Assembly: GCA_013348845.1 (NCBI GenBank)
Contig: CP054675.1
Location: 1,559,501-1,623,500, forward strand
Origin: Candidatus Tepidiaquacella proteinivora
GTDB taxonomy: Bacteria > Bacteroidota > Ignavibacteria > Tepidaquicellales > Tepidaquicellaceae
Length of the DNA stretch: 64,000 nucleotides
Direction of reading: 5' to 3'
A program made the position numbers and the translations under genes. How positions within the stretch are numbered: the stretch's first letter is position 1; each line of letters starts with the position of its first letter. This document shows positions 7,119-60,976 of this stretch, piece by piece. The notes below the pieces were generated by a model. The model searched no databases. It saw only the letters and a program-made list of their open reading frames with translations, and was not told the origin of the DNA.

Positions 7119-8759
7119 ATGAAGAAATTATTTATTGCGATTTTTTTAATTTTTATATGTTCAGGGATATCATTTTCCCAAATAAAGCTTAATGTTAAAG
7201 CTTCATTGACAAACACTTTTAGATATGGAAATGGTACTCAAATAATAAATGCAAAGGATAGTGCAAAAGAATATTTTGAAAATCTTTCTGATGCAAGGCT
7301 AACTGTAAATGATATTATTTTCGGAATGCGATATGAAATTAGTGACCCAATAGAATGGGGCAGAGATTTTAAAGGAATTAGAAAAAGATATGTCGAATAT
7401 AAAGGTAGTGATGTTGTTTCTTTACGGGCAGGAGACTTTTACGATGTTATTGGAAGAGGACTAACTCTAAATGTATTTGAACAAAGGTTACTGGGATATG
7501 ATACAGGAATTGACGGTGTTAGAATTTTTTATAATAATACATTTGGTAAAACGCATCCTATAAAACTTAAAGCTGGAATTCTTGGGGGAAATATTGAATA
7601 CAGTGATTTTTTAAATCCAAACCGAATTGAAACCTATAAAATAAGAGACTTCAACTTAGAAATATCACCTTTTAAGTTTCTTACGATAGGAGGAAATTAT
7701 GTTTATGCTAAAGGTTCAATTCCATCAGGAAACATCATAACAAACATCACAGCAGATATTCCAGAAGTTTTTGCAAGTTTTAATTTAAAAGGATTACAAA
7801 TATTTACTTCTTATGCTCACAAACATACAATTACAGATCCCAATCAACAATATCCAATATCACTATCAACAAATGGCGATGCTTTTTATTCTTCTATATC
7901 TTATTCCATGTCAGGTTTTGGGGTAACATTGGAATATAAAAACTACAGATTTGATTTAACTGCTCCAAACAACAGAAGTTCTGAGAGGCCAACAAAAATG
8001 TTACCATTTCAAAATCCACCAACAGCAGTAAAAGAACATACTTCAACTTTAGTCTCCAGAAATCCAAAAGTTGTTGACTTTAATGATGAGGTTGGAGCTC
8101 AATTAGAGTTGAATATAGTTCCAAATGATAAATTATCTTTTTTAATTAATACTTCTGTTGCATCAAGGCATTATAAATATGAATATATTTTTTCAAGTGG
8201 AATTTATAAAAGAATTGAGAGAAGTTTTGATTTAATTCCCGCCTTTGAGGATGAATATGACCCTTTTTGGGAAGTTTATGTTGAATCAGAATATTATGCG
8301 ACAGACAAAATTTATACAAAACTTGCTTTATCAAAGCAGAACTTTGTTACTTTTACTTATCCAAAATCAGTAGAAAAAATATTTGCAACTACAATACCTT
8401 TTGAATTTAAGTATTCATTAAAGGAAGATTTGATTTTAAAATTATTATTTGAACAACAATGGGTGCATAATTCAATTCGTATTCATGATAAAAATTTTAC
8501 AAATCAATTAATCGCTATTGGGTTTATAAAATCTCCCGAATTAACATTTACTATAAGTGCTGAATATACAAGTGATAAAGAGGATCCCTCTGGAAAAAGA
8601 AACTGGTTTAAAGGAGAATTGACATATAACATTACTTCATCAAATTTAGTTACCATATCGTATGGTAGGGAAAGAGGCGGATTAACTTGCGCAAGCGGAA
8701 TATGCAGATATGTATTCCCCTTTGATGGTTTCAGGATTTTAATTCAAACAAAATTTTAA
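7119..8759 (+). CDS. Outer-membrane beta-barrel protein (DUF6029-like)
   Basis: The frame is open from TTG at 7086, but I prefer ATG 7119 because MKKLFIAIFLIFICSG followed by SFSQ is a canonical signal peptide. The ~546-residue mature region is rich in alternating beta strands with aromatic girdles and ends in an aromatic C-terminal residue (FRILIQTKF), the signature of a Bam-inserted barrel. RAGDFYDVIGRGLTLN resembles the DUF6029 family of Bacteroidota outer-membrane proteins. The function is unknown. It lies between a TlpA-like protein and an Omp28-like lipoprotein, which suggests a shared export or surface role. Confidence 0.72.
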   Translation: MKKLFIAIFLIFICSGISFSQIKLNVKASLTNTFRYGNGTQIINAKDSAKEYFENLSDARLTVNDIIFGMRYEISDPIEWGRDFKGIRKRYVEYKGSDVVSLRAGDFYDVIGRGLTLNVFEQRLLGYDTGIDGVRIFYNNTFGKTHPIKLKAGILGGNIEYSDFLNPNRIETYKIRDFNLEISPFKFLTIGGNYVYAKGSIPSGNIITNITADIPEVFASFNLKGLQIFTSYAHKHTITDPNQQYPISLSTNGDAFYSSISYSMSGFGVTLEYKNYRFDLTAPNNRSSERPTKMLPFQNPPTAVKEHTSTLVSRNPKVVDFNDEVGAQLELNIVPNDKLSFLINTSVASRHYKYEYIFSSGIYKRIERSFDLIPAFEDEYDPFWEVYVESEYYATDKIYTKLALSKQNFVTFTYPKSVEKIFATTIPFEFKYSLKEDLILKLLFEQQWVHNSIRIHDKNFTNQLIAIGFIKSPELTFTISAEYTSDKEDPSGKRNWFKGELTYNITSSNLVTISYGRERGGLTCASGICRYVFPFDGFRILIQTKF

Positions 8760-8779
8760 ATTAATAAATAATTCTTCAT

Positions 8780-9580
8780 ATGTATAATAAAATAATAAAA
8801 TTTGGAATCTATCTAACTATAATAATTATTTCTTTATTATTAATTTCGTGTGAAAGTAATGATGGTCTAATTCCAAAAGGGACAGGGGATTTGAAGTCAA
8901 ATAGTAAAACCCTTATAGAATTCTTCACAAATACAAGCTGCACTGGTTGCCCTATTGTAGGACATTATTTAGATAGAATTAATAATCTTGAAGGAGTTAC
9001 AATTAATGATACTAACGTTATTATCATAAGAGTACATACTTCACTATTTCCGAATGATCCGTTTCACAATTTTAATACTATTGACAATCTTGCAAGACAA
9101 ACCTATTACGGAGCAGGTACATTTAATCCAATAGGTTTTGCTAATGGAAGTATGTTACCAGTACCTTTTGACGAAAATGGTTGGACAACACAAATCAATA
9201 TGAAGTTAAACCAGAAAAGCAATTTTGGTTTAAATCTTATAAATACACTGGATACCATAACAAGAAATGGAACTCTTTCAATACAGATTGGACAATTTTC
9301 TGGGCAACCTATAAATGATTTGGTTTTACACATTGCTCTTACAGAGGGCGATTTGTACTATAACGCACCAAATGGAGAAACACATTTTTTTAATATATTA
9401 AGAGATTTAATCACTCCTTGCAGCGGAGAAAGTATTTCTGTTATTCCCGGTCAATCAACTATTATTAACAAAGAATATACCATAGATAATAGAGTAGTAA
9501 TAAGAAATTGTGAAATTATAGTTTTTGTTCAATGCTCTTCAACCAAACAGGTATTAGTTGTAGATAAAATTGTTTTATAA
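8780..9580 (+). CDS. Omp28-related lipoprotein with thioredoxin-like CxxC
   Basis: A 266-residue protein with a lipobox (LLLISC, Cys ~24), hence an envelope lipoprotein. The motif EFFTNTSCTGCPIVGHYLDRI is the thioredoxin-like CxxC segment of the Omp28 family found in Bacteroidota. The remainder is a beta-rich domain. It follows the barrel gene by 20 bases and overlaps or closely abuts the next gene, consistent with an operon 6575-11747. Confidence 0.75.
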   Translation: MYNKIIKFGIYLTIIIISLLLISCESNDGLIPKGTGDLKSNSKTLIEFFTNTSCTGCPIVGHYLDRINNLEGVTINDTNVIIIRVHTSLFPNDPFHNFNTIDNLARQTYYGAGTFNPIGFANGSMLPVPFDENGWTTQINMKLNQKSNFGLNLINTLDTITRNGTLSIQIGQFSGQPINDLVLHIALTEGDLYYNAPNGETHFFNILRDLITPCSGESISVIPGQSTIINKEYTIDNRVVIRNCEIIVFVQCSSTKQVLVVDKIVL

Positions 9581-49773: not shown

Positions 49774-50215
49774 TCTGATAACCGGTTGCTGAGTAGCGAA
49801 GCAACTGTTACCAGGTCGTCGAGTAGCGAAGCGTATCGAGACGACGACTATCATCGGTCGTTTCGATTCGAACTACTTTCCACTCAACGACCTTGCTTCA
49901 ATCAGTTGTCGAGTAGCGAAGCAACTGTTACCAGGTCGTCGAGTAGCGAAGCGTATCGAGACGACGACTATCATCGGTCGTTTCGATTCGAACTACGTTC
50001 CACTCAACGACCTTGCTTCAATCGGTTGTCGATTAGCGAAGCAATTGTCACCAGGTCGTCGAGTAGCGAAGCAACTGTCACCAGGTCGTCGAGTAGCGAA
50101 GCGTATCGAGACGACGACTATCATCGGTCGTTTCGATCCGATCTACGTTCTACTCAACGACCTTGCTTCAATCAGTTGCTGAGTAGCGAAGCGTATCGAA
50201 GCAACCGACAACAAT
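49774..50215. repeat. 120-bp tandem palindromic repeat array (REP-like)
   Basis: The 120-base unit repeats almost exactly: 49801-49860 is identical to 49921-49980. A third copy carries an extra ~40-base internal duplication (50041-50080 region). Units are built from the core GAGTAGCGAAGC with inverted repeats such as CAGTTG...CAACTG and GTCGTC...GACGAC, so they can fold into stem-loops. The sequence is clearly more GC-rich than its flanks. The one long frame through it (49786-50226) is only a by-product of a repeat length divisible by three. The array lies upstream of the GIY-YIG gene. Confidence 0.85.
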
Positions 50216-50395
50216 TGGAAAAATAACGATTATTTAATACACTTAGCAACTCAATTACTACTTGCTCAAATTCTATCAGTTTCTTACTCCCCTATACACC
50301 AGACCATCAACATCCCATCTATATTCTTGTATCTATATTGTGATTATATTTTAGAAACAAGTATTTTTATTCCCTATTAGTAAAAAAAATAACAC

Positions 50396-52284: not shown

Positions 52285-52711
52285 TTACCTGTAATTTTCA
52301 TCATTTTCCCAATTTAATGGATTGTCAATAATGTATTGTCGGATGCGATACAAATCAATTTCATCGCGAACAATGTGTTCGTAATAATTTCGTTGCCAGG
52401 GGCAATTCATTTGGTAGGGGCAATTCATGAATTGCCCCTACATTTTTTATAATGATTATCCCATGAATATGATTTGGCATTACCACATATTCATCCAATT
52501 CAACATGTTCAAAATGTTGCGGTATTTCCAACCAACAATGTTCCACAATTTTTCCATATCCATTCAATACCATTTTCCCATTCACCACATCCCCAAATAA
52601 ACATTGGCGGTTATGCGTGCAAAGGGTGATGAAATACGCACCGGGTTGGGAATAATCATATCCCCCCAATCGTATGGAACGACGATGATGTTTTTCAGGG
52701 TCGTATTTCAT
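52285..52711 (-). pseudogene. REP-associated tyrosine transposase (RAYT), interrupted by a REP palindrome
   Basis: The N-terminal part reads PEKHHRRSIRLGGYDYSQ, YFITLCTHNRQCLFG and YVVMPNHIHGIIII, the Y1/HUH motif (His-x-His) of RAYT transposases. A GTAG-type palindrome (52414-52441) then follows, after which the reading frame is shifted and the true C-terminus resumes with QRNYYEHIVRDEIDLYRIRQYIIDNPLNWE, including the catalytic-type Tyr, ending at 52285. The usual segment between MPNHIHG and WQRNYYE is missing, replaced by REP sequence. Confidence 0.82.
52401..52441. repeat. GTAG-type REP palindrome inside the broken RAYT gene
   Basis: GTAGGGGCAATTC followed by its reverse complement forms a perfect 28-bp palindrome (52414-52441), with a further half-copy GGGGCAATTCATT alongside. 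The GTAG 5' of a stem is the tetranucleotide guide used by RAYT enzymes in E. coli. Confidence 0.82.
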
Positions 52712-52754: not shown

Positions 52755-52781
52755 GAAAAATTTTTCGCCCCTACAATTTTT
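52755..52781. repeat. GTAG-type REP palindrome that supplies a stop codon
   Basis: GGGCGAAAAATTTTTCGCCC is a perfect 20-bp palindrome preceded on the minus strand by GTAG. The TAG of that GTAG is the stop codon of the specificity-domain frame (52771-53583). Confidence 0.85.
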
Positions 52782-53583
52782 CCCCCTCAACAATCTTTAT
52801 CTCCTCCTTCGTCAACCCATACAACTCACACACCAGCCTGTCTATCTCCCGCTCCCACTGGCTCGTGTCTGCCTGTGGGCTATTCTTCTTCACCGCCAGT
52901 ATCTTATCCACCAATGTCTCGATTTGATTTACAATGTGCTGATTGGATGCAGTAATGGGGGGAAGGGGCATTATTTCAACATATTGATTTGATAACCTAA
53001 AACCAGTAAACCCATATTGATGGACTATCATTTCAACATATTTATAAATCAATTTTGAATTTAACAATGCCATTATAAATTTCAAATTTTTACCTGTGAA
53101 AAATGCCATACTATCAAGTATGAAAACACTTGGTTCTACTAAACAAAAAGTTGGTTCTTGGGTAATTCTCTGCCACACCACCTTCTCCTTCTCAAACTCG
53201 GGGTAGTAGGCGATTTGGTCCTGGGTTTCAAACCATTTGTTGCCCGTTTTTTTACGTGCATCAAAACCCAAATTGGGATATTTCTTTCCCGATTGTTCTA
53301 ATTGTCTGATGTCAAAGTGGTCTAAAAAATATTTTTTAAGGGCAGGATAATCATCAATGTTTAATTTCAACGCCGGAAATGTGCCTATCACCCACAACCC
53401 TACCCATTCGTAATAGTAGCGTTTAATATCGCGACCACGAAGGATAGGTTTTATAATTGTCATAGTACGTTTTTGTTCTTCTTTATCTCTGCAATTTAAC
53501 AATATCTCTTTGAGCTTTTCGATGTTATAATAAACGCTTCGTTTAAGCCGGTTAATACTCCACGATAAATTTTTACATCCCAA
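52771..53583 (-). CDS. Target-recognition (TaqI-like) C-terminal domain of the Eco57I-like methylase, split off by a frameshift
   Basis: The frame contains KLKEILLNCRDKEEQKRTMTIIKPILRGRDIKRYYYEWVGLWVIGTFPALKLN, FETQDQIAYYPEFEKEKVVWQRI, TGFRLSNQYVEIMPLPPI and the coiled C-terminal helix, all typical of the specificity part of type IIG or single-polypeptide R-M enzymes. It begins where the upstream methylase frame (ending 53496) should continue; a missing base near 53540-53560 explains the break. The first ~20 listed residues are out-of-frame. Its stop codon lies in a REP palindrome. Confidence 0.82.
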   Translation of the reverse strand: MGCKNLSWSINRLKRSVYYNIEKLKEILLNCRDKEEQKRTMTIIKPILRGRDIKRYYYEWVGLWVIGTFPALKLNIDDYPALKKYFLDHFDIRQLEQSGKKYPNLGFDARKKTGNKWFETQDQIAYYPEFEKEKVVWQRITQEPTFCLVEPSVFILDSMAFFTGKNLKFIMALLNSKLIYKYVEMIVHQYGFTGFRLSNQYVEIMPLPPITASNQHIVNQIETLVDKILAVKKNSPQADTSQWEREIDRLVCELYGLTKEEIKIVEGEKL

Positions 53584-56500
53584 TCTTTAAGAGGTTTGCC
53601 TATTTGCTCAATTTTCTCTTTAAGGCATTGCTCGGCACTGCTCCCTATAAACCATGCATCTTGTTTTAGTTTGTTTAAGATTACTCCTCGTTCAGTAAGT
53701 TGTTTTGATATTTCAATATTATTATTTTCTTTTTGTAAAGTAACTGCCAAAAGTTTGTTTTTATTTTTAGCTTTCTGTATCAACAGGATATTTGTATCTA
53801 CAGTTGCACTTTCGAAAATACCAGGACCTAAATCAATCAATATAATTGGATTATACTTTAAAAAGAAAGTTCTTAACTTTTCGCCATAACCGGCACGCAT
53901 CCATTTGTTGGATGTGATAAAACATAAGTAACCATTGGGTTTGAGTAATTGTAAACCCTTTTCATAAAATAGACAATAAATATCACCCATACGATCGAAG
54001 GTTTCGTAGCCTTTACCATCATAGAGGTCTGCCAGTTGCCCTTCATTTTTCTGCAATTGAATATACGGCGGATTAGCAATTACAACATCAAAGCCATTAT
54101 TGTGTCTAAAAACTTCAGAAAAATGGATTTTAAAATCAAATGTTACTTTATAACCGAGACTTTTTTCAGTGTTTTTCAAAATATTGAAAATTTTCTCATC
54201 AATTTGTTTTTTCAGAGAATTTTTCTCTAATTGTCTTGCTTCATTAAAGAATTTTTCTTTCAGATTTTCAATCTCTTCTAATCCCCTTGGTGTATATGGA
54301 TAACTGAGTAATGAATTTCCACAGGTAACTTTATAGTCAAGATTTGGCAATGGTTGTATTTTATAAAAATCTTCTTCATCAACTATCAAAGAAAGCCAGA
54401 ATCTTAATTTACATATTTCAACAGCGCCTGAGTCTATATCAACTCCATAGAGAGACTTTTCAATACAATGACGCTTAAAATTATAAGTTGTTCGCTCTCT
54501 CAACCAGGATGGTTGAGTTACTGTATCACAAGCATCCTGCTTGTGTTTATCATTGGAAATGACTTTAGGATTATCTTCAATATATTTGCGTATTCTTTCA
54601 AGTTGTTCAGGATTTCTAATTATATGGTCAAATGATTCGTGCATCCATAGTTCACCTTCTCTGCCAGTTAATTTATTTATTTGATTAGCAGTATAAGATT
54701 TCCAGGAATGCATAATTTGTGACAATGACCATTTCCCTTTGGGAATTACAATAACATGAACATGATTAGGCATAATTACATATTTATCTAAATAGTATCT
54801 ATCGTTATTAAAATAATTTAAAGCATCTTCAACAATTTGCCTGCATTTTGCATCTTTTAATATACACGAACCATGTCCATTATCTAATAGTTCATCATAT
54901 CTCTTTGAAAAAAGACGATAATACTCTATTTGTTTCTCTTTATTTAAGTTATGTAAATCTGATATACTTTCTATTTTATTTTCTTTAAACCAATTCTCTC
55001 TTTCCATTCGTATATTTTCAGCCACATCCTTGGGAATTGAATCATACAACCTGAATGTAACAAAATATGCTTTGCCCTCTTGTTCCCAATGTGGTAAATT
55101 ACGATTTTTTTTACTTACAGGTTCATCGGGGGCAAAGTAAATACTCAACCAGAATGGTTGAGTTACAATATAATTTGTTAAAACATTCCTTGCTTTTACT
55201 ATTTCAAGCATCATTCCTACCGGGAATGCACCAGAACCAACGGCAGAATCGCAGACCCTGATATTCGCTAATTTATCATCTATCAGTTTTGCGTTATTCC
55301 TTATACTTTCAGGCATTTTACTTTTTATGGTTGTGCTTTTCTGTTTCCCGGACTTTATATCTTCTTCCTTTTGTAAAGCAGTTTTCTCATTTTCAACAAT
55401 ATGCTCTCCATGTTTGATAAATAATTCTATATCTTCTTTATTTACCTTGCCTTCAAGTTCAGTTGCGAGATAGTTTATTAAACTTTCCTGACACATATAA
55501 TGGACGATTTCACGGGGAGTATAATAAGTGCCCTGTCCTTTACGCAGATTTTCTTCAATCAGGTTTTCAAAGACCTTACCGAGTAATTCCGGGTCAAGTG
55601 CAACTTCCTTTTCAAGGGGTTCATCTTCCTGAACAGTAAAATTGTATCTATCAAAAACATCAAGGATACCACTGCCAATATCTCCTTCTTCTGTCTTTTT
55701 ATTGTTAGAAAATAATTCATTTGGAATTATTATATCTGTTCGCTTCCAATCGTAGTTATTAATTGGTTCAAATAAGCCACCATTTAGGAATGGTATTCTG
55801 CAATCAAAATATTTTGAATAGGTTGCGTCTGCCTGATTTAATCTCGGATCATTAAGGGTGTTGTAAAATAGTATTTCAAGATAATCATTAAAGAAATTTT
55901 TCTTTTGCTGACTGCATTTAGTAAATAAAGAACGCAGGAAGTTCCTGTCACCATCTCCCCAGTTTTTATCTTTGGGGACACCGAGCCATCCCTTCTTTTG
56001 TAAGAAATAAAGAAAAACAATCTGTCCTAATAACTTTTTGGAAAAATCTGTGGTATTAATTTTTTTCTTCTCAAAATCTTCCCGGACGTCTTCATCTTTT
56101 ATGACAATTTTATCAATAGAATCCTTTAATTTTATGTAAAGGTCACGGTATTTATTAAGGAATTCTTTTGTTACTTTTTCTACACTAAATGCTTTTTCAA
56201 GTTGTTCTAATGTAGGATTATTTATATCGTCCTGTAAGAGAGGAAGCAGTTGCTGTTGAGCAGTATGATTGGGCTCGTTTTTACCAACTAAAAAAGAATA
56301 TCTGCGAGCTGGTGTGAATTCCTCTTCACCTTTTGGTCTGCCAGTTTTGGTTTGAGTAAGTTTGTATTCCATTTTAACCAGAGAGAAACGCCAGTCATCA
56401 AGCCCTGGTGAAACAAATGCCACGATAGCAGCATCTTTCTCTGTATCAGAGCCATATTTGCCGGTTAAGTATCCTGCGACGAAATTTCTTTGCATTGTTC

Positions 56501-56759
56501 TGGCACGTTCAATAGAGGTCTCTTTATTGAGAAAAACTATCAGGATGTCAATTCTTTTGTCTTCTGATACATATTTGCCAACACGTTCGTATTTGTTAAT
56601 ATATTGCTTAAAAGTATCGGGTATATACTGCCCATAATACTCAAATGGCTCCAGAGAAATTTTATTAAATAGATTTTTTACAAACTTGACATACCTTTCT
56701 TTTTCAAAAGGATTCTCAAATGTCTCTTTAATAAGATTTATAGCAGATTGTTTATCCAT
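53496..56759 (-). CDS. Eco57I-like adenine DNA methylase/endonuclease with an in-frame RAYT transposase insertion
   Basis: A 1087-residue frame. The N-terminal part resembles the nuclease domain of type IIG/ISP enzymes (possible ExK in MEYKL). SAM motif I is CDSAVGSGAFPVGM (~503-514), and catalytic motif IV is ANPPY (~895-899). Between them, residues ~540-746 are foreign: a complete RAYT (HWEQEGKAYFVTFRLYD, IMPNHVHVIVIP with His666/His668, GELWMHESFDHIIRN, RKYIEDNP with Tyr726), framed by two REP hairpins read as VTQPFWL and VTQPSWL. Methylase sequence resumes with TTYNFKRHCIEKSLYGVDID. The frame then shifts before the specificity domain (52771-53583). It starts 3 bases after the YhcG gene. 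Confidence 0.88.
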   Translation of the reverse strand: MDKQSAINLIKETFENPFEKERYVKFVKNLFNKISLEPFEYYGQYIPDTFKQYINKYERVGKYVSEDKRIDILIVFLNKETSIERARTMQRNFVAGYLTGKYGSDTEKDAAIVAFVSPGLDDWRFSLVKMEYKLTQTKTGRPKGEEEFTPARRYSFLVGKNEPNHTAQQQLLPLLQDDINNPTLEQLEKAFSVEKVTKEFLNKYRDLYIKLKDSIDKIVIKDEDVREDFEKKKINTTDFSKKLLGQIVFLYFLQKKGWLGVPKDKNWGDGDRNFLRSLFTKCSQQKKNFFNDYLEILFYNTLNDPRLNQADATYSKYFDCRIPFLNGGLFEPINNYDWKRTDIIIPNELFSNNKKTEEGDIGSGILDVFDRYNFTVQEDEPLEKEVALDPELLGKVFENLIEENLRKGQGTYYTPREIVHYMCQESLINYLATELEGKVNKEDIELFIKHGEHIVENEKTALQKEEDIKSGKQKSTTIKSKMPESIRNNAKLIDDKLANIRVCDSAVGSGAFPVGMMLEIVKARNVLTNYIVTQPFWLSIYFAPDEPVSKKNRNLPHWEQEGKAYFVTFRLYDSIPKDVAENIRMERENWFKENKIESISDLHNLNKEKQIEYYRLFSKRYDELLDNGHGSCILKDAKCRQIVEDALNYFNNDRYYLDKYVIMPNHVHVIVIPKGKWSLSQIMHSWKSYTANQINKLTGREGELWMHESFDHIIRNPEQLERIRKYIEDNPKVISNDKHKQDACDTVTQPSWLRERTTYNFKRHCIEKSLYGVDIDSGAVEICKLRFWLSLIVDEEDFYKIQPLPNLDYKVTCGNSLLSYPYTPRGLEEIENLKEKFFNEARQLEKNSLKKQIDEKIFNILKNTEKSLGYKVTFDFKIHFSEVFRHNNGFDVVIANPPYIQLQKNEGQLADLYDGKGYETFDRMGDIYCLFYEKGLQLLKPNGYLCFITSNKWMRAGYGEKLRTFFLKYNPIILIDLGPGIFESATVDTNILLIQKAKNKNKLLAVTLQKENNNIEISKQLTERGVILNKLKQDAWFIGSSAEQCLKEKIEQIGKPLKDWDVKIYRGVLTGLNEAFIITSKSSKRYC
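54499..54545. repeat. REP hairpin pair at the downstream edge of the embedded RAYT
   Basis: CTCAACCAGGATGGTTGAG (54499-54517; with TTAC, i.e. GTAA on the minus strand) is an 8-bp stem with a 3-base loop. Next to it is CACAAGCATCCTGCTTGTG (54527-54545), another perfect 8-bp stem. Both are translated in the methylase frame as QDACDTVTQPSWL. Confidence 0.88.
54522..55143 (-). mobile_element. RAYT (Y1/HUH transposase) module inserted in frame in the methylase
   Basis: About 207 codons that encode a full RAYT domain with the HUH motif NHVHV (His666, His668) and catalytic-type Tyr726. It has no stop codon or own start that interrupts the host frame and lies on the host's coding strand. Hairpins of one REP family occur at both ends (54499-54521 and 55144-55166), in the same orientation. 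The combination is like a REP-RAYT unit captured within a coding sequence. Confidence 0.82.
55144..55166. repeat. REP hairpin at the upstream edge of the embedded RAYT
   Basis: CTCAACCAGAATGGTTGAG with the adjoining TTAC (GTAA on the minus strand). It differs from the other copies by one loop base and is translated as VTQPFWL. It is in the same orientation as the copy at 54499. Confidence 0.87.
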
Positions 56760-56762
56760 AAA

Positions 56763-57165
56763 TTATTCTTTCAATCCTTTTTCTATATCTTTTTCAGTTG
56801 GTAATTTGTTTTTTAATTTAGAAGGTAATTTTCTAATTATTCTATACTTGGATACGCCTATCGGCTTATCGATTCCTTTCAACGCATATTCTACTTCTAA
56901 CCGGTCACGGTCCTTACAAATAATAATTCCGATAGAGGGATTTTCTTCAGGCAATTTTACTTTTTCATCAAGCAAATTCAGATAAAAATTCATCTTCCCG
57001 GCGTATTCAGGTTTAAATTCACCTATTTTCAAATCAATTGCAATCAAACAACGCAAAAATCTATGGTAGAATAAAAGGTCAATAAAATATTCCTTATCAT
57101 TTAACGCAATCTTATACTGGTTTCCAATAAAACAAAAACCTAACCCTAATTCAGTAAGAAATTTT
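56763..57165 (-). pseudogene. YhcG/DUF1016 nuclease, C-terminal half (PD-(D/E)xK), frameshifted from its N-terminus
   Basis: The frame continues the N-terminal half (57151-57792) with FLTELGLGFCFIGNQYKIALNDKEYFIDLLFYHRFLRCLIAIDLKIGEFKPEYAGKMNFYL, the DUF1016 nuclease core (D...ELK-type), ending PIGVSKYRIIRKLPSKLKNKL. It is one base out of frame with the N-terminus at a run of seven A's (57160s). An initiation at TTG 57056 would give only the last 97 residues. Confidence 0.8.
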
Positions 57166-57792
57166 TTTAAAATTATCCAAAAGTTTTCTCTCTAAGTCCC
57201 TTTCTAATAATGGTTTTGCAACATCCAGAAAATCAAGAGTATAGGTATCTTTCATTGCCAAATCTGCTTGTTCAGATAAATGGGCGGGAAGTGTTTTAGG
57301 AAAATTATGAAGTTTTATTGCTTTTGCCTGCTTATGTGCTTCTGCTTCTATTTGATGAATAAGCACATCCCTGCTACATCCGAATTGTATTGTTCCTTTA
57401 ATATAAAATTCCCTATCTTTTATATTTTTAACTCTGGATAATATTATCAAATTATGTCCCCAGGGAATTTCTCCAACAAGCTGTTGGAGATTTGGATATT
57501 CTTTATATTCCAGATAAAATTGTCGCATATACCATAAATTCTGAGCAGAGTATCCTTTTATTCCTGAAAACTCTTTTCTTAAATCATTGGAAAGTTTTTC
57601 AACAACGTTTTTACCCCAGCCGTATTTTTCCTGTTGTGCTACAATACTTTTTCCGATATCCCAATATAATTTTATTAACTCTTTATTTAAACTTTTATAT
57701 GCTCTATTACGAGCACTTATAATTTTATTTTTTATATCCCGTAAAAATAAAAGGTAATCTTTTGATATTATTGCTGTTTTTTTATCAGACAT
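57151..57792 (-). CDS. YhcG/DUF1016 nuclease, N-terminal half
   Basis: 213 residues: LRDIKNKIISARNRAYKSLNKELIKLYWDIGKSIVAQQEKYGWGKNVVEKLSNDL is the DUF1016_N winged-helix-like domain, with GYSAQNLWYMRQFYLEYK and LVGEIPWGHNLIILSRVKNIKDREFYI also diagnostic. The frame ends KLLDNFKKISY at an A-run, after which the nuclease domain continues in another frame. The gene starts 1 base after the helicase stop codon and its second half ends 3 bases before the methylase gene, so the three are one operon. Confidence 0.85.
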   Translation of the reverse strand: MSDKKTAIISKDYLLFLRDIKNKIISARNRAYKSLNKELIKLYWDIGKSIVAQQEKYGWGKNVVEKLSNDLRKEFSGIKGYSAQNLWYMRQFYLEYKEYPNLQQLVGEIPWGHNLIILSRVKNIKDREFYIKGTIQFGCSRDVLIHQIEAEAHKQAKAIKLHNFPKTLPAHLSEQADLAMKDTYTLDFLDVAKPLLERDLERKLLDNFKKISY

Positions 57793-57793
57793 T

Positions 57794-60700
57794 TCATTCT
57801 CCTTTTGTAACCAGATACTCAGAAAGTATTACTTCTCGTGGACCTGAAGGCTGTCCTGGCAATTCAGATATTGGTGCTGTAAAAAATGATTCTGGAATGG
57901 AACTCCTTATTATTCCATATATCTTCAGATGACTATTTTCTTTTCCAAGTTTTTTTATAATATTTTTTGATGTTTGTTTAGGCAAAGTTCCTTCTTCAAG
58001 GAGATTTAAAACCTTTCTCAGGTAGTCCTCGTCATCTTCAGTAAAGCCCTTCATTTTTAATATTGCCTTTATTATATTTAATAATCTTGCGTCACTACTT
58101 TTACCGCCTTTAGTCTTAACTTCCTGAATATCTTCAATTAATGATAATTTAAAAGCATTTTTGTTCTTGTCTAAAAAATCGTAATATTTTTTGCCTATTT
58201 TTTCTCGCTTAGTGTTTTTATCTGCTTTCAATATTTCTACAGTTTGAAAGAAGTCAAGTTCTTTTGTCTCTTCTTCATTACTGATAAACATTTTTCTTAA
58301 TTTACCTTTTCTGAAAAAGGTAATACAAGCATCCTGCTGGTGGTCATTATATCTCAACCAGGATGGTTGAGTTACTTTGGCGCTTCTTGCTTTTTTAGGT
58401 AGGTGTTTTATTTTCTCAAATAAATTCGGTGCACTGTCTCTTATATTTCTAATTTCAGAAAGATATTTAAGTTCTGACTCTTCTTGCTCTTCTCCTTCAA
58501 TGACTTCTTTAGAATTCAACCTCTTAAAAAGCTCAAATGATGAAACTTCTTCGCCATCAGTTAAATAAGCTGCATCTTCTCCAAGGATATCGTGAAAAGC
58601 CTGCAACTTTCCAATAGCCGCTTCTTCTAACTTTATTTCTTCATTGGATTGAACTGTTGGGAAAAAATTGTAAATAAAAATCTTGTCAAACTTTGTATCT
58701 ACTCTGTTTATACGACCTACCCTCTGAATTATACGAATAGGATTCCATGGAATATCATAATTGATAACCACATTAGAGCGATGCAGATTAACTCCTTCGG
58801 AAAGGATATCAGTAGTAATTAATATTTTTATATCATCTTTAGGGGTTTTGCTCTTGGGGTCAAAGTTTTCTACTATCTTTTCTCTGACAGGAGCACCTGA
58901 TTTGCTGGAATATGATATGACAGCGTCGTCATATATACTCTTTAAGTTCTGTTCAAGGTATTCTGCGGTTTCCATTGACTCGGTAAAAACGATTATTTTG
59001 TTTTCTTTCAATATTTTTTCTGAAGATAATTTGTGTTTAAATTCCTCAATTTTAGGGTCTGTGGTTATGTCCTTCCAGAGCGTTTTGATTTCTTTAAGTA
59101 TTTTTAAATCGTCTTTCAGGTCTTTAATGAATTCTGGTATAAATTCATTCGCTTTGTAATCCCGGACTTTTTCTTTTTCAACTAATTTTATTATTTCGAC
59201 TATATTGTCATTCTCTAAAAGGTCAAATATTTTATTTGTATATTTTTTGCTGATATAAATAGTCCCTTTATCAAACATGCTTATAAATTGTTCGTAGGAA
59301 TATATAAATCTATCCAGTGTATTTTTAAAAGCAAAGAAACTGCTTTCAAGTCGTTTAACAAGCAAAACCTTCATAAACCTTCTTAAGTTACGTTGTCCTA
59401 CTTCTTCTTCAGGTTCAGGATATTTTAAATACAAGAGTGGTGTATATCTGGCATATTTAAAAAGTTTTATTTTGGAAATAGTTTCATTAAATATGGTATT
59501 GGTTCTTTTATCAAATTGATAATATAGTTTCTTTGGTGGTTCTACATCCGGGAACTTTAATCCTTTCTTTTCAAGGTCTTTAATAAAATATTCTTTTATG
59601 TCTTTTCTTGTTCTTCGCACTATCAGATATTTTAGGACATCTTCTCTTATCTTTTTTGAGTTCTCTTTGATTATTGAGATGTAAGTATTAAAGTCGGTTA
59701 ACCTATCAATTTCTTTTAGCCGATTCTGTAACGAACTAAAATACTTTTCCAAATTCTTCAAATTGGGAAGGGTGCTATTCCGTCCTTTCTGAAACAATTT
59801 TATTTGACTTAATATATCCAAAGGAGTATTATTTTGAGGAGTTGCAGAAATGAGAATAACTTTTTTACCCCAACATATCTGTTTTAATTTTTCATAAGTT
59901 TGAGTTGATTCATTACGAAAACGATGTGCTTCATCTATAAAAACATTTTTATAGTTCCTCACCTTAATTTTTTTAATTATTTCGTCTAATTTACCTAATG
60001 ATTCAACAGTTGCTGGAACATGAAAATCCTGGAATGTATTTTGCCAATAATCTTTAAGGATTGGCGGACAAATAATGAGATTACGACCATCTAACTGTTG
60101 TGCCAGCAGAGCAGAAATATATGTTTTCCCAAGACCCACTACATCTGCCAGAAATACACCGCCATACTCTTCTAATTTATTCTTAGCATCACTGACAGCT
60201 TCACGTTGATATTCAAGATTCATAAAATCCTGTGGAAAATAAGTCGTAGTTACTTCCTCCTGGTCAAGATTTATTTTTTCTTTCAAATATTCATACAAAA
60301 ACTTTAAGTAGAGTTCATAAGGAGTTATGTTATCATTGAGCCACGTCTTGTTCGTAATTGTATTAATATATTCTTCTGAAACATCTACCGATTTTTTCCA
60401 CAAATCATTGAATGCACGAATAGCAAAATTGTAATCAGATGGGTTTTTAAGTTCAACATTAAATTCAAGGTTATCAACAAGTCCTGATAGTGTGAAGTTG
60501 CTTGAGCCGGTAATAACTCTCCCAATATCCCTATCACCTTTTCTAAAGGTCATAATGTACACCTTTGCGTGTAAATTTTGTGACGGGTATGCTCTGATTT
60601 CAATTTTCCCATTCCTGATCCATTCAATAAATTTATTAATTCCGGCTTCAATTTCAGGCTTATCTTCTGAAAGTTCTGTCACCTTTAAGATTTGTTCTTC

Positions 60701-60976
60701 TATTTTTAATTTAGTTTCATAATGAGAGAAACTAAAATTTTCCTGATTTTCTTCCTGTCCAAGTTTTATATAATTCAGAGTTTCTCTATCTGTACCAATA
60801 CCGATGAGAATCCTGATTTTTTCAGTACTTTCAAGGGGAGTACAAATTTCATAAAAACCAGCCACATTAAAAAATGCAACCAAACAATCAAAAAATCGTG
60901 TATCTTTAATTAATGTTCTGAATCTTTCTTTTAATGTTTGCCCCGGTTCATTAGTGATAAATGTTAAGTCTGTCAT
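57794..60976 (-). CDS. PLD-domain SNF2-family helicase (defence-type)
   Basis: A 1060-residue protein. Residues ~1-190 are a phospholipase-D-like nuclease domain (QNLHAKVYIMTF, VITGSSNFTLSGL). The SNF2/DEAD helicase follows: YQREAVSDAKNKL, Walker A ADVVGLGKTYIS, DEAH box FIDEAHRFRN, LISATPQNNTP, then the C-terminal helicase with IIVFTESMETAEYLEQ, ILITTDILSEGVNLHRSNVVINYD and QRVGRINRVD. Residues ~868-884 (VTQPSWLRYNDHQQDAC) are REP-derived peptide. Helicases with N-terminal PLD domains occur in DISARM-like and R-M systems; here it heads the operon with YhcG and the methylase. Confidence 0.9.
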   Translation of the reverse strand: MTDLTFITNEPGQTLKERFRTLIKDTRFFDCLVAFFNVAGFYEICTPLESTEKIRILIGIGTDRETLNYIKLGQEENQENFSFSHYETKLKIEEQILKVTELSEDKPEIEAGINKFIEWIRNGKIEIRAYPSQNLHAKVYIMTFRKGDRDIGRVITGSSNFTLSGLVDNLEFNVELKNPSDYNFAIRAFNDLWKKSVDVSEEYINTITNKTWLNDNITPYELYLKFLYEYLKEKINLDQEEVTTTYFPQDFMNLEYQREAVSDAKNKLEEYGGVFLADVVGLGKTYISALLAQQLDGRNLIICPPILKDYWQNTFQDFHVPATVESLGKLDEIIKKIKVRNYKNVFIDEAHRFRNESTQTYEKLKQICWGKKVILISATPQNNTPLDILSQIKLFQKGRNSTLPNLKNLEKYFSSLQNRLKEIDRLTDFNTYISIIKENSKKIREDVLKYLIVRRTRKDIKEYFIKDLEKKGLKFPDVEPPKKLYYQFDKRTNTIFNETISKIKLFKYARYTPLLYLKYPEPEEEVGQRNLRRFMKVLLVKRLESSFFAFKNTLDRFIYSYEQFISMFDKGTIYISKKYTNKIFDLLENDNIVEIIKLVEKEKVRDYKANEFIPEFIKDLKDDLKILKEIKTLWKDITTDPKIEEFKHKLSSEKILKENKIIVFTESMETAEYLEQNLKSIYDDAVISYSSKSGAPVREKIVENFDPKSKTPKDDIKILITTDILSEGVNLHRSNVVINYDIPWNPIRIIQRVGRINRVDTKFDKIFIYNFFPTVQSNEEIKLEEAAIGKLQAFHDILGEDAAYLTDGEEVSSFELFKRLNSKEVIEGEEQEESELKYLSEIRNIRDSAPNLFEKIKHLPKKARSAKVTQPSWLRYNDHQQDACITFFRKGKLRKMFISNEEETKELDFFQTVEILKADKNTKREKIGKKYYDFLDKNKNAFKLSLIEDIQEVKTKGGKSSDARLLNIIKAILKMKGFTEDDEDYLRKVLNLLEEGTLPKQTSKNIIKKLGKENSHLKIYGIIRSSIPESFFTAPISELPGQPSGPREVILSEYLVTKGE
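58325..58375. repeat. REP hairpin pair read through in the helicase gene
   Basis: CTCAACCAGGATGGTTGAG (58353-58371, followed by TTAC) and a decayed ACAAGCA-TCC-TGCTGGT (58325-58344). They match the pair at 54499-54545 but in the opposite relative order, and are translated as VTQPSWLRYNDHQQDAC. Confidence 0.85.

Follow-up and report, generated by a model that had tools for sequence, protein, structure and literature searches.

Members of one clade of REP-associated tyrosine transposases (RAYTs) are found in frame inside many unrelated enzymes, an arrangement whose existence and recurrence we regard as virtually certain. One of them resides in a type IIG restriction-methylase gene of “Candidatus Tepidiaquacella proteinivora,” within the 64,000-nucleotide stretch of contig CP054675.1 analyzed here (referred to below as the window; coordinates are those of this stretch unless another locus is named). 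Taken alone, the window supports only an in-frame insertion of unknown consequence; its significance comes from the relatives, which present in-frame RAYT residence as a recurrent lifestyle rather than an isolated accident. The explanation that we consider probable is that a selfish RAYT lineage, whose REP ends contain no stop codon in the RAYT frame, persists as a tolerated translated guest in enzyme loops.

The host ORF (positions 53496 to 56759; the features of the host, the RAYT unit, and the neighboring helicase described below are all on the minus strand) encodes a stop-free type IIG (Eco57I-like) restriction-methylase of 1,087 amino acids, with the RAYT in frame at codons 532 to 754. 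A Pfam search of this ORF finds the Eco57I (residues 769 to 975) and N6_Mtase domains alongside Y1_Tnp (residues 648 to 730), and PADLOC recognizes the host as REase_MTase_IIG (PDLC03596, 1,130 bits). The SAM motif I, DSAVGSGAFP, is at 55221 to 55250 (DPA[VI]GSG in homologues), and the NPPY motif is at residues 896 to 899 (54063 to 54074). An earlier sequence-only reading of this DNA had placed a RAYT in frame between these two motifs of an Eco57I-like methylase, and the Pfam matches and the open frame bear it out.

In minus-strand order, the RAYT unit consists of a GTAA-tagged hairpin 1 (55166 to 55144), the RAYT itself (55142 to 54566), hairpin 2 (54545 to 54527) followed by an ATAC tag, and a repeat of the GTAA-tagged hairpin 1 (54521 to 54499). 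The left REP, GTAA-CTCAACCA-TTC-TGGTTGAG (55144 to 55166), reads VTQPFWL in translation, and the right REP, GTAACTCAACCATCCTGGTTGAG (54499 to 54521), is oriented like the left one and reads VTQPSWL; both were identified by the REP pattern and by folding, so that the window RAYT has REP hairpins at both ends, as in the known RAYT family. The sequence-only reading had described these two border hairpins of the same orientation correctly but missed a third, CACAAGCA-GGA-TGCTTGTG (54527 to 54545; 54523 to 54545 with the ATAC tag), which, judging from folding and comparison with the REPs, looks like a REP of the same type in the inverted orientation. With hairpin 2 inverted, the RAYT is enclosed by an inverted REP pair, in a REPIN-like manner. 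The 28-nt REP pattern has three matches in the window against zero expected, the REP hairpins fold far better than shuffled sequences, and the unit is stop-free in the RAYT frame across all hairpins.

The RAYT (Y1/HUH transposase) domain spans residues 540 to 732 (54566 to 55142). Alignment of the embedded RAYTs places its HUH motif at H666-V667-H668 within PNHVH (54756 to 54764) and its catalytic-type tyrosine at Y726 within YIEDNP (54582 to 54584), in agreement with the HUH motif and catalytic-type tyrosine mentioned in the earlier reading. The description of this RAYT as complete holds for the catalytic core (approximately 55142 to 54566) but not for the start of the gene: there is no ATG of its own, and the only candidate start near the core, a TTG at 55148, is not preceded by a Shine-Dalgarno-like sequence. 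The window RAYT unit is a genuine member of its lineage, with intact catalytic residues, lodged in a type IIG enzyme.

The Y1_Tnp match of this RAYT has an E value of 7.8e-9 in Pfam. The best of all NCBIfam models is NF047646 (REP_Tyr_transpos), which gives 66.8 bits (E = 1.9e-18), under its cutoff of 80; a best match that stays under the cutoff points to a divergent RAYT subgroup. The profile match to the solved TnpA-REP structure 4er8 has an E value of 0.0087. The REP foot is GTAA in the window and GTAA, GTAC, or GGGC in the relatives, not GTAG; degenerate REP feet have been reported in the literature for some families. An IS200/IS605 insertion sequence was considered and rejected, as the IS200 transposase model gives 28.9 bits against a cutoff of 55 and the element has a single copy in the genome.

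The boundaries of the insert were fixed by homologues that lack it. The inserted segment comprises 223 codons in the order REP, RAYT, inverted REP, REP (54498 to 55166) and is absent from the homologue in genome G017 (L009), from a paralogue in the same genome (L028), and from two methylase homologues at IMG/VR loci (L130 and L131). Across the junctions, the window reads ...ARNVLTNYI / VTQPFWLS...DTVTQPSWLR / ERTTYNFKRHC, where the G017 homologue reads straight through as ...ARNVLTNYLSKNKERTIYNFKRHC and the paralogue as ...RRLLSIYLKEDRKTYDLKRHC. Together, the four insert-free homologues place the junctions in a loop between EIVKARNVLTNY and ERTTYNFKRHCIE, just past SAM motif I. This loop is variable in both length and sequence, and a target site duplication therefore cannot be read off. 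The in-frame REP-RAYT-REP segment in the window methylase is real, and the alignment that the sequence-only reading had proposed as a check shows that it does not belong to the usual make-up of these methylases.

The host gene itself is probably decaying. The motifs and the Eco57I domain of a type IIG enzyme are present, but the target-recognition part is in a different frame (52771 to 53583; TaqI_C in Pfam). This ORF corresponds to positions 912 to 1145 of the same PDLC03596 model; a frameshift near position 53540 therefore divides the enzyme. In addition, motif I starts with DSA instead of DPA, and the adjoining YhcG/DUF1016 nuclease gene (56763 to 57792) is split. The separate frameshift makes loss of function of this particular host gene likely, and we doubt that the enzyme is functional. 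A different IIG-like gene of the same genome (L029, C1:756-775) has an identical break just before its target-recognition domain: it shares the ACATCGAAAAG... context with positions 53496 to 53583 of the window, is one base shorter, and continues into a different recognition domain in another frame. The two genes may have decayed together, or the enzyme may be a split one whose specificity parts can be exchanged.

Several features favor a recent, roughly neutral insertion, in frame by chance, into a restriction gene that was already dead or dispensable: the methylase frame breaks off ahead of the target-recognition domain, another locus of the genome has a frameshift in the same region, the neighboring YhcG is split, and motif I has DSA. 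Restriction-modification (R-M) genes are commonly lost. Yet about 1,080 codons remain open, including the RAYT and three REP hairpins, the same clade occurs in frame in single-copy essential enzymes, and embedded RAYTs in general are under purifying selection. As an account of the window case, chance insertion appears unlikely to us; it can hold for this host gene but leaves the overall pattern unexplained.

Across the entire genome, a single contig of 2.40 Mb, the window RAYT is present in one copy, and its REP recurs only twice outside the RAYT unit, in frame in both cases. These sites are a RAYT-less REP pair (58320 to 58375) in the PLD/SNF2 helicase ORF of the same island (57794 to 60976; identified by Pfam) and the duplicate of that gene about 240 kb away. 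The pair, VTQPSWLRYNDHQQDAC, combines a REP with an inverted REP in frame in the helicase; two inverted REPs forming a unit, the arrangement that defines REPINs, are thus seen both here and at the right end of the RAYT unit. Helicase homologues from loci L050 to L054 have a RAYT at the REP site; the site of this particular pair is occupied by a RAYT in L051 to L054 and empty in G017, L130, and L131.

The surroundings of the unit include some further repeated or truncated sequences. The helicase genes of the two R-M islands are identical over approximately 690 amino acids, and the paralogous island at C1:1.37 Mb (L028, positions 8407 to 9048) has an identical copy of the 213-residue first part of the split YhcG; this suggests a recent duplication or gene conversion between the islands. 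A second, unrelated truncated RAYT-like ORF with a PNHIHG motif adjoins the island at 52361 to 52711, where a below-threshold match to an sraA-like RNA is also seen (52405 to 52500). At 49786 to 50226, there is a tandem array of units of about 120 to 150 bp, 94 to 96% identical, in an open frame that codes for SSSEAYRDDDYHRSFRFEL... repeats.

RAYTs were described in the sequence-only reading as normally free-standing, which is true of the other RAYT groups of the order but not of the clade found in the window. In the order, 46 of 48 RAYT-like matches are in frames of at most 257 codons, and only two RAYTs, the one in the window and one from a related Ignavibacteria genome (G011, locus L065; JABAQZ010000033.1), are in frames longer than 260 codons. 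The latter is 53% identical to the window RAYT and is in frame in a 1,552-codon methylase frame, at a different position. Tandem REP units of 42 or 54 nt, seven in all, lie on both sides of it; these lengths are divisible by three, which suggests selection for frame after the insertion.

The search of related genomes, also proposed earlier, found the same RAYT clade in frame in many other enzymes and across many phyla. A scan of approximately 85,000 species genomes with the window and L065 RAYTs as queries yielded 80 loci, and in 43 of these the RAYT is in the frame of a recognizable larger enzyme: a methylase (11 loci), leucyl-tRNA synthetase (LeuRS; 10), CarB (7), PLD/SNF2 helicase (5), HsdR (4), MqnA (3), and ValRS, MetH, and an ADH/GFO protein (1 each). 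Contig ends truncate a few of the 43, and in L083 the frame ends 40 codons past the RAYT. In Pfam searches of the whole fusion frames, the RAYT is bracketed by host domains in LeuRS, CarB, MetH, HsdR, ADH/GFO, and MqnA; the remaining hosts were assigned by BLAST clustering, except for ValRS, which was assigned by reading the sequence. The other 37 loci are free-standing RAYTs of the same clade, so residence in enzymes is frequent but not obligatory. Scanning IMG/VR for the RAYT gave no match, and scanning a plasmid collection gave a single distant one (34%). In two proteins, the lyase-like L082 and the MoaE-like L072, with hosts assigned by reading only, a RAYT is fused at the C-terminal end via in-frame REPs.

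In one Verrucomicrobia family (97 genomes), there are 111 RAYT matches in 46 genomes, about 43 of them, by a count from the table, in frames of at least 590 codons. The hosts in this family include LeuRS, MetH, IspG, HsdR, CarB, adenosine deaminase, and a DUF5107/TPR protein, and the matches include near-closed genomes with 4.2 to 5.7 Mb on one contig. Most of the loci come from metagenome-assembled genomes, which would leave room for an assembly or binning artifact. However, the same in-frame architecture is found in the isolates Roseibacillus persicicus KCTC 12988 and Luteolibacter pohnpeiensis KCTC 22041 and on multimegabase single contigs, and the sites match in independent assemblies, which leaves an artifact with a practically negligible chance. 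The genome of Roseibacillus persicicus encodes seven RAYTs of this clade, three of them in frames of more than 1,100 codons, and its LeuRS-RAYT frame (L079; G044:C9) extends to 2,175 codons.

The RAYT-bearing LeuRS is the only LeuRS above the curated cutoff in all 10 genomes (two of them from isolates), and the RAYT-bearing IspG is the only IspG in all seven genomes (two on multimegabase contigs). As the only copies, these enzymes must tolerate the insert, which argues against inactivation of the host as a rule. No second full-length copy of CarB was detected in seven genomes, including three truncated at contig ends. The LeuRS insert is located inside the editing-domain profile, near its C-terminal end, and the CarB insert is inside the oligomerization-domain profile. 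The inserts fall in poorly conserved loops between conserved blocks, probably surface loops; this position was deduced from sequence only, as both structure predictions are of low confidence. AlphaFold2 gave a mean pLDDT of 43.5 and a pTM of 0.32 for the window protein and 46.9 and 0.27 for the LeuRS-RAYT fusion L126, each from a shallow alignment, with moderate confidence in L126 for the RAYT part alone (residues ~437 to 614). A Foldseek search with the L126 model retrieved LeuRS structures by way of sequence similarity, with TM scores of about 0.2.

The mature host protein presumably retains the RAYT. Removal of the insert after transcription or translation, as with an intron or intein, so that the enzyme is made without it, would suit the niche, in that these elements likewise occupy essential enzymes and conserved proteins, with insertion near functional domains. 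Still, no Hint splicing domain is detectable by Pfam in the fusion proteins, no group I or group II intron is matched by Rfam in the window region, L126, L105, or L051, and the open frames across the inserts fit translation and not RNA splicing. To our knowledge, no self-splicing chemistry is associated with RAYTs or REPs, and we consider such removal highly unlikely.

Embedded RAYTs evolve under purifying selection. The HUH motif and the tyrosine are intact in 44 of 44 of them, including the one in the window. Their pairwise dN/dS values are 0.05 to 0.32, compared to 0.05 to 0.13 for free RAYTs, and the window RAYT shows pN/pS of 0.20 to 0.34 versus its nearest relatives, at synonymous sites that are near saturation. 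This outcome of a check suggested earlier argues, together with the conserved catalytic residues, against neutral debris. In 8 of the 10 LeuRS-embedded RAYTs, there is no ATG in the 45 codons ahead of the core, whereas most free RAYTs have one at 9 to 27 codons. Inverted REP pairs that score above all shuffles are found at 31 of the 41 scored embedded loci, with such pairs around all 10 LeuRS RAYTs and all six scored CarB RAYTs.

Trees further show that the RAYTs have been repeatedly gained, lost, and switched between hosts, with in-frame REP scars marking the losses. On the RAYT tree, the host labels require at least 16 changes, where the minimum for 11 groups is 10, and the window RAYT belongs to a clade (support, 100/97) with five helicase-hosted RAYTs and one methylase-hosted RAYT. 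In an orthologous methylase (L057), the RAYT is at another site and a RAYT-less REP pair is at the site occupied in the window. Occupancy of LeuRS is scattered over the host tree (4 to 5 changes), and the LeuRS of L207 has kept the right REP alone in frame, an in-frame scar of RAYT loss, while its near relatives L206 and L166 are occupied. In the helicase trio, the RAYT dS is 0.15 to 0.23 versus a host dS of 0.63 to 0.75, and in LeuRS it is 0.12 versus 0.39 to 0.46; overall, the RAYT dS is three- to sixfold lower than that of the host in the helicase trio, L114/L119, and L063/L075 but equals or exceeds it in L097/L104 and L111/L115. These values point to recent exchange in some pairs and vertical descent in others, although gene conversion could also be a source of low RAYT dS.

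The same distribution bears on the idea that the host enzymes have exapted the RAYT as a functional module, such as a DNA-binding or nicking domain of R-M enzymes. Such hosts are indeed frequent (type IIG methylases, HsdR, and the PLD/SNF2 helicase), and the RAYT is under purifying selection. However, a single-stranded DNA nickase would serve no purpose in LeuRS, CarB, MetH, IspG, MqnA, or adenosine deaminase, most homologues at each site have no RAYT, and the units keep their REP ends and switch hosts. That one lineage occurs in frame across many unrelated enzymes speaks against exaptation by R-M systems, and we give this explanation very little credence. Thus, none of the three options initially offered, namely, a recent neutral insertion, an inactivating one, or R-M exaptation, fits the wider data well.

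We therefore return to the tolerated, translated guest. Insertion would proceed by the cut-and-join reaction on single-stranded REPs for which TnpA-REP proteins are known; their cleavage of such REPs has been demonstrated (PMC8266576). Insertions in the wrong frame, in the wrong orientation, or at the wrong place would be eliminated because they kill the host gene. The survivors would be expressed from the promoter and start codon of the host gene and protected from loss, as few deletions would leave a needed enzyme intact. In the window, the RAYT unit occupies the type IIG methylase, and a RAYT-less REP pair marks a helicase site bearing a RAYT in relatives. A bolder version is that the frames of indispensable enzymes are the regular home of this lineage: the RAYT would insert in frame at tolerant loops, be made along with the enzyme, be hard to delete, and spread to homologous sites in other genomes, as an intein-like parasite without splicing; we see this as a serious possibility, slightly short of an even chance.

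RAYTs are puzzling as single-copy transposases that persist for a long time without spreading themselves. A clade inside the frames of essential enzymes would offer a concrete persistence strategy, with borrowed expression and protection from deletion, and the retention of domesticated transposases is directly testable in culturable Verrucomicrobia. LeuRS, CarB, MetH, and IspG with RAYTs also form a natural collection of domain insertion experiments, and the annotated “fusion” proteins that earlier surveys discarded turn out to be informative.

The closest known systems are the RAYT/TnpA-REP elements, or REPtrons (PMC6006769, PMC3733652), which resemble the units described here in having an HUH/Tyr single-strand transposase of about the same length, flanking REP hairpins that bear a 4-nt foot, and a patchy distribution. 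REPtron RAYTs, however, have been described as free-standing genes between REPs, whereas here they are internal to host enzymes and, in most LeuRS cases, without their own start. Quentin et al. (2018; PMC6006769) reported REPs within tnpA-REP genes and excluded RAYT proteins that were longer than expected, which they took for fusions or annotation errors. Di Nocera et al. (2013; PMC3733652) described intragenic REPs, some of them within genes for tRNA synthetases and some in Opitutus terrae, a Verrucomicrobium. These are likewise in frame and tolerated by the host, and the REP pair in the window helicase is of that kind; however, they are REP-only inserts of 20 to 80 residues, whereas in the RAYT units the transposase gene travels along in frame. 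Intragenic REPs are thus already known, whereas a full-text literature search, with most subscription journals and preprints outside its reach, turned up no account of RAYTs in frame in host enzymes.

Three other systems offer partial parallels. Rickettsia palindromic elements (cited in PMC3733652 and partly general knowledge) are also selfish palindromes in frame in many unrelated functional proteins, but they have no transposase inside and differ in the palindrome and in the taxa. Inteins with homing endonucleases (also partly general knowledge) similarly place a selfish nuclease domain in essential conserved enzymes, with patchy occupancy of a fixed site, and the low RAYT dS suggests a comparable movement between homologous sites. 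Unlike inteins, the RAYT guests have no splicing domain, imply a mature protein that keeps the insert, occupy many different sites, and would rely on HUH-type insertion chemistry. Finally, REPINs (PMC3116915) are mobile units of two inverted REPs, resembling the RAYT-less pairs found here at RAYT sites; REPINs are mostly extragenic and noncoding, whereas the units described here are coding, and one form of them has the RAYT gene inside.
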